A DNA stretch of 64,000 nt. It comes from Pseudolabrys sp. GTDB taxonomy: Bacteria > Pseudomonadota > Alphaproteobacteria > Rhizobiales > Xanthobacteraceae. The stretch covers positions 35,555 to 99,554 of the forward strand of contig JAUXXH010000035.1 in NCBI GenBank assembly GCA_030684935.1, given 5' to 3'. The notes beneath the pieces are model-generated. The model was not told the DNA's origin. It saw nothing but the letters and a program-made list of their open reading frames with translations, and made no database searches. The translations under genes were made by a program, and so were the position numbers. Shown here piece by piece: positions 243 to 2,738 of this stretch (position 1 is its first letter; every line of letters starts with the position of its first letter).

Positions 243-944
243 TTAAGCGGGGATCCGCTCCTCGGCCTCATGCGGCTCGCGCAGCACGTAGCCGCGGCCC
301 CACACGGTCTCGATGTAGTTCTTGCCGCTCGACGCGTTCGCCAGCTTCTTGCGCAGCTTGCAGATGAACACGTCGATGATCTTGAGTTCGGGCTCGTCCA
401 TGCCGCCGTAGAGATGGTTGAGGAACATCTCCTTGGTGAGCGTGGTGCCTTTGCGGAGCGAGAGCAGCTCCAGCATCTGATATTCCTTGCCCGTCAGGTG
501 GACACGCTGGCCGCCGACTTCGACCGTCTTGGTGTCGAGGTTGACCACCAGATCGCCGGTGTTGATGACCGACTGGGCGTGACCCTTGGAGCGGCGCACA
601 ATGGCGTGGATGCGGGCGATCAGCTCGTCCTTGTGGAACGGCTTGGTCATGTAATCGTCGGCGCCGAAGCCGAGACCCTTCACCTTGTCCTCGATACCGG
701 CGAGGCCGGAGAGAATTAGGATCGGCGTCTTGACCTTGGACACCCGGAGGGACCGCAGCACCTCGAAACCCGACATGTCGGGGAGGTTCAGGTCCAAAAG
801 GATGATGTCGTAGTCGTACAGCTTGCCGAGATCGACCCCTTCTTCCCCGAGATCCGTCGTATAGACGTTGAAACTCTCGGATTTGAGCATCAGCTCAATC
901 GATTGGGCGGTCGCGCTGTCGTCTTCAATCAGTAGAACGCGCAT
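243..944 (-). CDS. ctrA: Cell-cycle response regulator CtrA
   Basis: [23 protein letters not shown]…, OmpR-type receiver plus winged helix, highly CtrA-like; next to fliI. Confidence 0.95.
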
Positions 945-1165
945 TTAAGTCCCCTTCTCGCCGCAACCGGGCTTCAGGTCAGCGCCGCGAAAGGCGGCGA
1001 GTGTGAAAAAACGCGGTGGGACAAACCGATTCGACACTATGCGGACATGGTTAACAAAACCTGATTCTTCAGTGCAAGCATTCGCTGGCGAAAGCAAGCC
1101 GAATCGCCCTAAGATGTTGCCACTGAGTGATTTTTTAGCCACGGCCCGCTTAATGCTCCAGATCA

Positions 1166-1187
1166 AGAGTCGTGGTTAAACGACTCT
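1166..1187. promoter_or_regulatory. Perfect inverted repeat AGAGTCGT-ggttaa-ACGACTCT in the ctrA/fliI intergenic region
   Basis: 8-bp perfect arms, 6-nt spacer GGTTAA; each arm carries a GANTC site. Confidence 0.6.
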
Positions 1188-1271
1188 ACAGACTCGCCCC
1201 TTCCGTCCTGGCCGGGCGATTCGATTGGCCGTAGTCCCAATGGACGATGACCCAATGATTAACGACGCGGG

Positions 1272-1295: not shown

Positions 1296-2738
1296 TTGGC
1301 CGGTAAGCCTAAGGGCGAGTTTACGGCCTTTTCGCGTTTTTTCGCCAGAGTGGTGCCTTCGGGAACCGTTAAAGACGTCCCGCGGCGAATCGGCACGCGT
1401 CGGGGACCCGTTTTGAAAGCTCTGGCCGAACAGATCGCGGATATCGACGGTGTCGAGATCTACGGCCGCGTCGTCGGCGTGCGCGGGCTGATGGTCGAGG
1501 TCGCCGGGCCGATCCAGGCGATGTCGGTCGGCGCCCGGCTCAATATCGAGAGCGGCACAGGACGCGCCATTCCCTGCGAGGTGGTCGGCTTTGCAGGCGC
1601 CCATGCGCTGGCGATGCCGTTTGCGGCGCTGGAAGGCGTGCGGCGCGGCTGCCGCGCCATTGTCGCCACGGCGGCGGGCACGGTGCGGCCGTCCGAGCGC
1701 TGGCTGGGCCGCGTCATCAACGCCATGGGTGAGCCGATCGACGGCAAGGGGCCGCTGCCGCCGGGCCCCGCGCCTTATCCGTTCCGCGCCGCGCCGCCGC
1801 CGGCCCATGCCCGCCGCCGGGTCGGCGATCCCCTCGATCTCGGCGTTCGCGCGCTCAATACCTTCATTACGGTTTGCCGCGGCCAGCGCATGGGCATCTT
1901 CGCCGGTTCCGGGGTCGGCAAGTCGGTGCTGCTGTCGATGCTGGCGCGCAATGTCGCCGCCGACGTGTCGGTCATTGGCCTGGTCGGCGAACGCGGCCGT
2001 GAGGTGCAGGAATTCCTCCAGGACGATCTCGGCGACGCCGGCCTGGCGCGTTCGGTGGTGGTGGTGTCGACGTCCGACGAGCCGGCGCTGATGCGCCGCC
2101 AGGCTGCCTACCTGACGCTGGCGATCGCCGAGTATTTCCGCGACTTGCACAAGGATGTGCTGGTGCTGATGGATTCGGTCACCCGCTTCGCCATGGCGCA
2201 GCGCGAGATCGGCCTGTCGGCCGGCGAGCCGCCGACCGCCAAAGGCTATACGCCGACGGTCTTCACCGAACTGCCGCGTTTGCTGGAGCGCGCCGGGCCC
2301 GGTACTGATGCCGGTACGATTACTGGCATCTTCAGCGTGCTGGTCGATGGCGACGACCACAATGAGCCGGTGGCCGATGCGGTGCGCGGCATTCTCGACG
2401 GCCATATTGTCATGGAGCGCGCCATCGCCGAGCGCGGGCGCTATCCGGCTATCAATATCCTGAAATCGATCTCCCGCACCATGCCGCGGGCCTGCGATCC
2501 CGCCTTTCTACCGGCGATCACCCGGGCCAAGCAGGTGATGGCAACCTATGCCGACATGGAGGAACTGATCCGGCTCGGCGCCTACCGGGCCGGTACCAGC
2601 CCCGAGGTCGATGAGGCGATCGGCCTGAACAAGCCGCTGGAGGCATTTTTGTCCCAGGGCAAGGACGAGGCCTCGACCCTCGCCGAGGGTTATCAGTGGA
2701 TCGAGCGAATCCTCGCCGGCAAAGAAACCGAAAACTAA
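1296..2738 (+). CDS. fliI: Flagellum-specific ATPase FliI (start uncertain; a downstream start near 1414 is plausible)
   Basis: Walker A GSGVGKS, F1-ATPase/T3SS ATPase family sequence; followed by fliJ. Confidence 0.93.

Follow-up and report, generated by a model that had tools for sequence, protein, structure and literature searches.

The region upstream of ctrA in the window (the whole stretch of 64,000 nucleotides that was analysed) contains the densest GANTC cluster of the MAG to which it belongs, and the signal in this cluster is three positioned sites, not the density itself. Judged from the sequence and its conservation, this region is probably the ctrA promoter and is best read as a promoter of the P1 type, timed by CcrM and GcrA and repressed by CtrA, with extra GANTC sites.

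Results

The genes and features of the region between ctrA and fliI are as follows (window coordinates; unstranded features carry no strand assignment).

243-944, minus strand: ctrA, response regulator CtrA (233 aa); NCBIfam NF045991 CtrA, 426 bits (cut-off 350)
1028-1032, unstranded: GANTC at ctrA -88, about +9 of the predicted P1 transcript; 29/29 genus members; fits YGAKTCK
1047-1055, minus strand: predicted CtrA half-site GTTAACCAT, over the predicted -10 TTAACC (1049-1054); kept across families
1063-1067, unstranded: GANTC at ctrA -123, in the P1-like spacer, about -27 of the predicted start; 28/29; fits YGAKTCK
1072-1077, minus strand: TTGCAC, predicted -35 of the P1-like promoter of ctrA; conserved TTGC and 17-nt spacer
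1101-1105, unstranded: GANTC at ctrA -161, about -65 of the predicted start; 28/29; fits YGAKTCK
1167-1186, unstranded: inverted repeat GAGTCGT-N6-ACGACTC; arms contain the GANTC at 1167 and 1182
1182-1195, unstranded: distal tandem pair GANTC-N4-GANTC (1182 and 1191), ctrA -242/-251; many Hyphomicrobiales; 14/29 and 15/29 in the genus
1218-1222, unstranded: GANTC at ctrA -278, position varies; 22/29, loose alignment overlap
1243-1276, unstranded: conserved block containing the half-sites GTTTAC and GTTAATCAT at a spacing of N8-N9; seen in genus alignments and in other families, including Rhizobium-like loci
1413-2738, plus strand: fliI, flagellar export ATPase, presumably starting at the TTG at 1413; TIGR03498 FliI_clade3, 652 bits against 587

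The sequence-only reading had listed seven GANTC sites between 1028 and 1222 and an eighth at 1387, and all eight positions were correct. In ctrA orientation, the seven sites lie at -88, -123, -161, -227, -242, -251 and -278. When the 468-bp ctrA-fliI intergenic region was shuffled, it contained 1.6 GANTC on average, and seven in 195 bp arose in 0 of 5000 shuffles (maximum 5). Across the 64 kb window, 127 GANTC were counted (1.98/kb) compared with 282 in dinucleotide shuffles; because GANTC is thus generally depleted in the window, the ctrA-fliI cluster stands out more. A cluster of seven in 195 bp necessarily includes three neighbouring GANTC within about 68 bp, and for the genome-wide density check that the earlier reading had proposed, all such triples were collected with two pattern scans and the sites around every triple were counted. 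The outcome agreed with that reading: in the 3.67 Mb MAG (89.6% complete), seven sites in 200 bp were found only at the ctrA locus, against a Poisson expectation of 0.02 for a 7-in-195-bp cluster in the assembly. Six sites were found at one place and five sites at five places. The second densest cluster, six sites in less than 200 bp (L067 894-1082, G000 contig C27), lies mostly between two open reading frames.

We next consider how the seven sites are kept within the genus, using an alignment of 29 members, own genome counted in. The proximal sites at -88, -123 and -161 were kept in 29/29, 28/29 and 28/29 members, and the distal sites at -227, -242, -251 and -278 in 10/29, 14/29, 15/29 and 22/29, respectively. 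Conservation within the proximal block was 98% at the fixed bases of its three GANTC sites compared with 83% in the other columns, at a mean pairwise identity of 78%. All three proximal sites also match YGAKTCK, the extended GcrA motif (PMC7987155), on one strand. L002, the nearest relative, was alone in having a clear counterpart of the eighth site at 1387, with a possible one in L024. Overall, the four distal sites turn over, and the seven sites are no single uniform switch.

The site at 1063 lies inside the spacer of TTGCAC-N17-TTAACC, in which the -35 and -10 elements are predictions from the conserved 17-nt spacing, and the predicted CtrA half-site GTTAACCAT covers the -10. The pattern TTG-N7-GANTC-N5-TTGTTAAC occurred exactly once per genome in 31 of the 37 genus genomes and adjoined ctrA in every genus genome with both positions listed; the same pattern reversed, used as a control, gave zero matches in the genus genomes. 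The predicted promoter is comparable, point by point, with Caulobacter ctrA P1: it lies directly upstream of ctrA, has a GANTC between its -35 and -10 and has a TTAA half-site over its -10. In Caulobacter, where the P1 start is mapped, the GANTC lies at -28/-29 and the CtrA half-site at -14 (PMC4287350). The same arithmetic applied here predicts a start at approximately window position 1040, which puts the GANTC of the spacer near -27 and its two neighbours near +9 and -65.

To describe how far this layout extends, we compared 80 named ctrA loci. The spacer GANTC was present in its layout in Bradyrhizobium, Tardiphaga, Methylobacterium, Rhizobium, Sinorhizobium, Shinella, Neorhizobium, Brucella, Ochrobactrum, Roseibium, Kaistia and Cohaesibacter, and the ladder of three sites in steps of 35-38 bp was also found in Bradyrhizobium and Tardiphaga. 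In a scan of 249 genomes of the order, 69 of the 70 GANTC-bearing matches had the GANTC at one fixed offset, representing 69 genomes from 14 families, with adjacency to ctrA confirmed for some matches, not every one. Among the ctrA loci compared, the spacer GANTC was absent in Agrobacterium, Devosia, Mesorhizobium and Hyphomicrobium. Because Agrobacterium, Devosia and some Rhizobium keep the promoter frame without the spacer GANTC, the order does not strictly require the mark. In spacers without the GANTC (L036, L037, L133, L135, L137, L156 and matches of the order scan), GAATT usually stands in place of GAATC, which creates TTAR-N6-TTAAC, a sequence similar to a CtrA full box; in two Rhizobium loci (L136 and L137), the spacer difference is that one base. 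One Brevundimonas and one Sphingobium genome (L184, L185) each have six GANTC in about 80 bp upstream of ctrA in another layout.

In the distal half, the -242/-251 pair (GAGTC-N4-GARTC) recurs in many families at a distance of 220-270 bp from ctrA, on its upstream side, and is not exclusive to ctrA, as it occurs in a few other places in relatives as well. GANTC is its own reverse complement, and because the sites at 1167 and 1182 form the arms of a single inverted repeat, two of the seven sites are not independent; both may be kept for dyad symmetry. The arms of this repeat (-227/-242) pair in 72% of cells at loop 6 compared with 23-30% at other registers, and pairing within the genus exceeded that of arms swapped between species (kinship ignored). 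In the 15 members without GANTC at -242, arm pairing was still in excess (0.57 versus 0.48, kinship ignored). As an explanation of the repeat, an intrinsic terminator was rejected on inspection by eye, as the T-run is absent. Further upstream, the block at 1243-1276 is strongly conserved and common to other families, including Rhizobium-like loci; inspection of it by eye called no canonical CtrA box (TTAA-N7-TTAA), the half-sites being spaced N8-N9.

With respect to the partners of such a promoter, the MAG encodes, by homology, a CcrM methylase: a 379-aa protein on contig C29 matches CcrM 6PBD (E 1.2e-157) and scores 609 bits with the NCBIfam CcrM model, under the cut-off of 830. The start codon of ccrM is closely preceded by two GANTC (GAGTCagagtagtGAGTCATG; L031 1360-1380, G000 contig C29). 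A search of the MAG for GcrA (PF07750) found no match, and GcrA was found in 33 of 36 congeners, weakly in one of these. In congener G018, phoB and argD flank gcrA, and contig C38 of our MAG starts 91 bp before argD, at the expected place of gcrA; the neighbouring argF shares only 65% identity with the G018 argF, so that the synteny is no more than suggestive. The gene is therefore probably missing from the MAG through a contig break, and loss of GcrA in the species was set aside as the less likely explanation. In two single-contig congeners, ctrA lies about 0.9 and 1.2 Mb from dnaA, taken as a rough marker of the origin.

Discussion

The matching P1 layout, the near-invariant proximal sites and the CcrM gene together support, at the level of sequence, the link between CcrM and ctrA that the sequence-only reading had drawn. 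In the mechanism that we favour, RNA polymerase with sigma-70 and GcrA would start from TTGCAC-N17-TTAACC, sensing the CcrM mark on the spacer GANTC at 1063. Passage of the replication fork would leave the sites hemimethylated and so permit ctrA transcription, CtrA~P on GTTAACCAT over the -10 would then turn the promoter off, and late CcrM synthesis would restore full methylation. The two extra fixed GANTC on either side of the promoter (near +9 and -65) may provide further contacts for GcrA or make the read-out sharper, and the distal pair with the inverted repeat would be a separate element linked to ctrA.

The other half of the earlier claim, a methylation switch acting on both divergent units, was not supported by the comparison with relatives. 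Although ctrA and fliI are divergent and adjacent in the genus and in several other families, as a single switch governing both would have it, the loci of Rhizobium, Sinorhizobium, Neorhizobium and Brucella keep the core and the distal pair where FliI was not found beside ctrA, and the fliI-proximal site at 1387 is not conserved. From the synteny and the conservation, we therefore rejected a switch that fliI would share, and we regard it as extremely improbable. It is also scarcely probable that the cluster is mostly a by-product, in which the distal sites would come from a dyad-symmetric element and chance turnover and only one promoter site would matter. Species turnover at four of the seven sites is what such an origin would give, as is the finding that two sites are arms of one dyad whose symmetry exceeds that of swapped arms even in congeners lacking GANTC there; however, none of the 5000 shuffles reached the density, and the sites at 1028 and 1101 are conserved like the spacer site.

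Two further explanations were considered. Given that MucR and CtrA can block CcrM at GANTC in Caulobacter and S. meliloti (PMC5172544), the cluster could be a shielded patch in which cover by MucR or CtrA keeps the sites under-methylated, so that they would report occupancy and would not drive transcription. We consider this very unlikely, as occlusion leaves unexplained a single fixed offset in the promoter spacer across families. Alternatively, the GAATCAG of the spacer could represent the first half of a CtrA full box (TTAR-N6-TTAAC) in degenerate form, with methylation being incidental. This is unlikely, even though spacers without GANTC usually read GAATTAG or GAATTAA and thereby form TTAR-N6-TTAAC: GAATCA is a poor CtrA half-site, yet GANTC is kept at the same offset in those 69 genomes, and C-to-T changes, such as that from GAATC to GAATT, are also the most frequent kind of mutation. 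On the sequences compared, a swap of a CcrM site for a CtrA half-site by a single base is possible; mutation bias may also explain the difference.

If the region is indeed a P1-type promoter, then the spacer GANTC would be one named site that bears on the timing of ctrA in rhizobia, brucellae and relatives, and the sister species that lack the spacer site but have the promoter frame would serve as natural controls. The fixed P1 layout with a CcrM site in its spacer, seen in many Hyphomicrobiales families, argues for shared ancestry. We tentatively propose that Caulobacterales and Hyphomicrobiales inherited the methylation/GcrA timing of ctrA P1 from a common ancestor and that it was not acquired separately by Caulobacterales and Sphingomonadales, with Hyphomicrobiales adding the three-site ladder and the dyad-symmetric distal pair as a second methylation-sensitive element. 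This consequence for the evolution of the circuit is testable.

Comparison with known systems

From a motif score and a single representative of each order, Adhikari et al. inferred that separate rewiring events placed ctrA under GcrA control in Caulobacterales and Sphingomonadales alone; for Hyphomicrobiales, they did not predict such control (PMC7987155). The positional conservation described above runs counter to this inference and questions it, GcrA binding here being putative. In the survey by Tomasch et al. (2021), the 300 bp preceding ctrA contained up to five or six GANTC in Sphingomonadales and Caulobacterales, and in Rhizobiales only 50% of the ctrA promoters had a GANTC at all (PMC8116508). 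The ctrA promoters of that study and the one described here are both GANTC-clustered, but here there are seven sites in 300 bp, with their positions and layout resolved. In S. meliloti, CtrA weakly activates P1 and does not repress it (PMC4433202), so whether CtrA activates or represses may depend on the family; that study left it to later work to find the regulators of ctrA (PMC4433202). Our search of the literature on Bradyrhizobium and S. meliloti for a control of ctrA through GANTC returned nothing direct. The gcrA promoter of Agrobacterium tumefaciens, a member of the same order, is similar in having six GANTC in 250 bp upstream of a cell-cycle regulator gene (PMC11514494). Full CcrM methylation represses that promoter, as measured there (PMC11514494), whereas our case concerns a different gene and sequence alone.

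The closest likeness is to ctrA P1 of Caulobacter crescentus, which is activated by GcrA, depends on hemimethylation and is repressed by CtrA, and with which the present promoter shares the place upstream of ctrA, the spacer GANTC and the CtrA half-site over the -10. Caulobacter sp. AP07 has the identical TTGCAC-N17-TTAACC with GATTC in the spacer, although the distance from GANTC to TTAA is 13 nt here compared with 15 nt there. The GANTC starts 4 nt into the spacer of the present promoter, whose P1 activity is predicted, and 2 nt into that of Caulobacter. Further, Caulobacter has one GANTC at P1 (PMC3667746), whereas here three fixed sites 35-38 bp apart are accompanied by a distal pair. Overall, the ctrA upstream region most likely represents a known kind of switch, that of Caulobacter P1, here with extra sites and in an order where a previous study inferred its absence.
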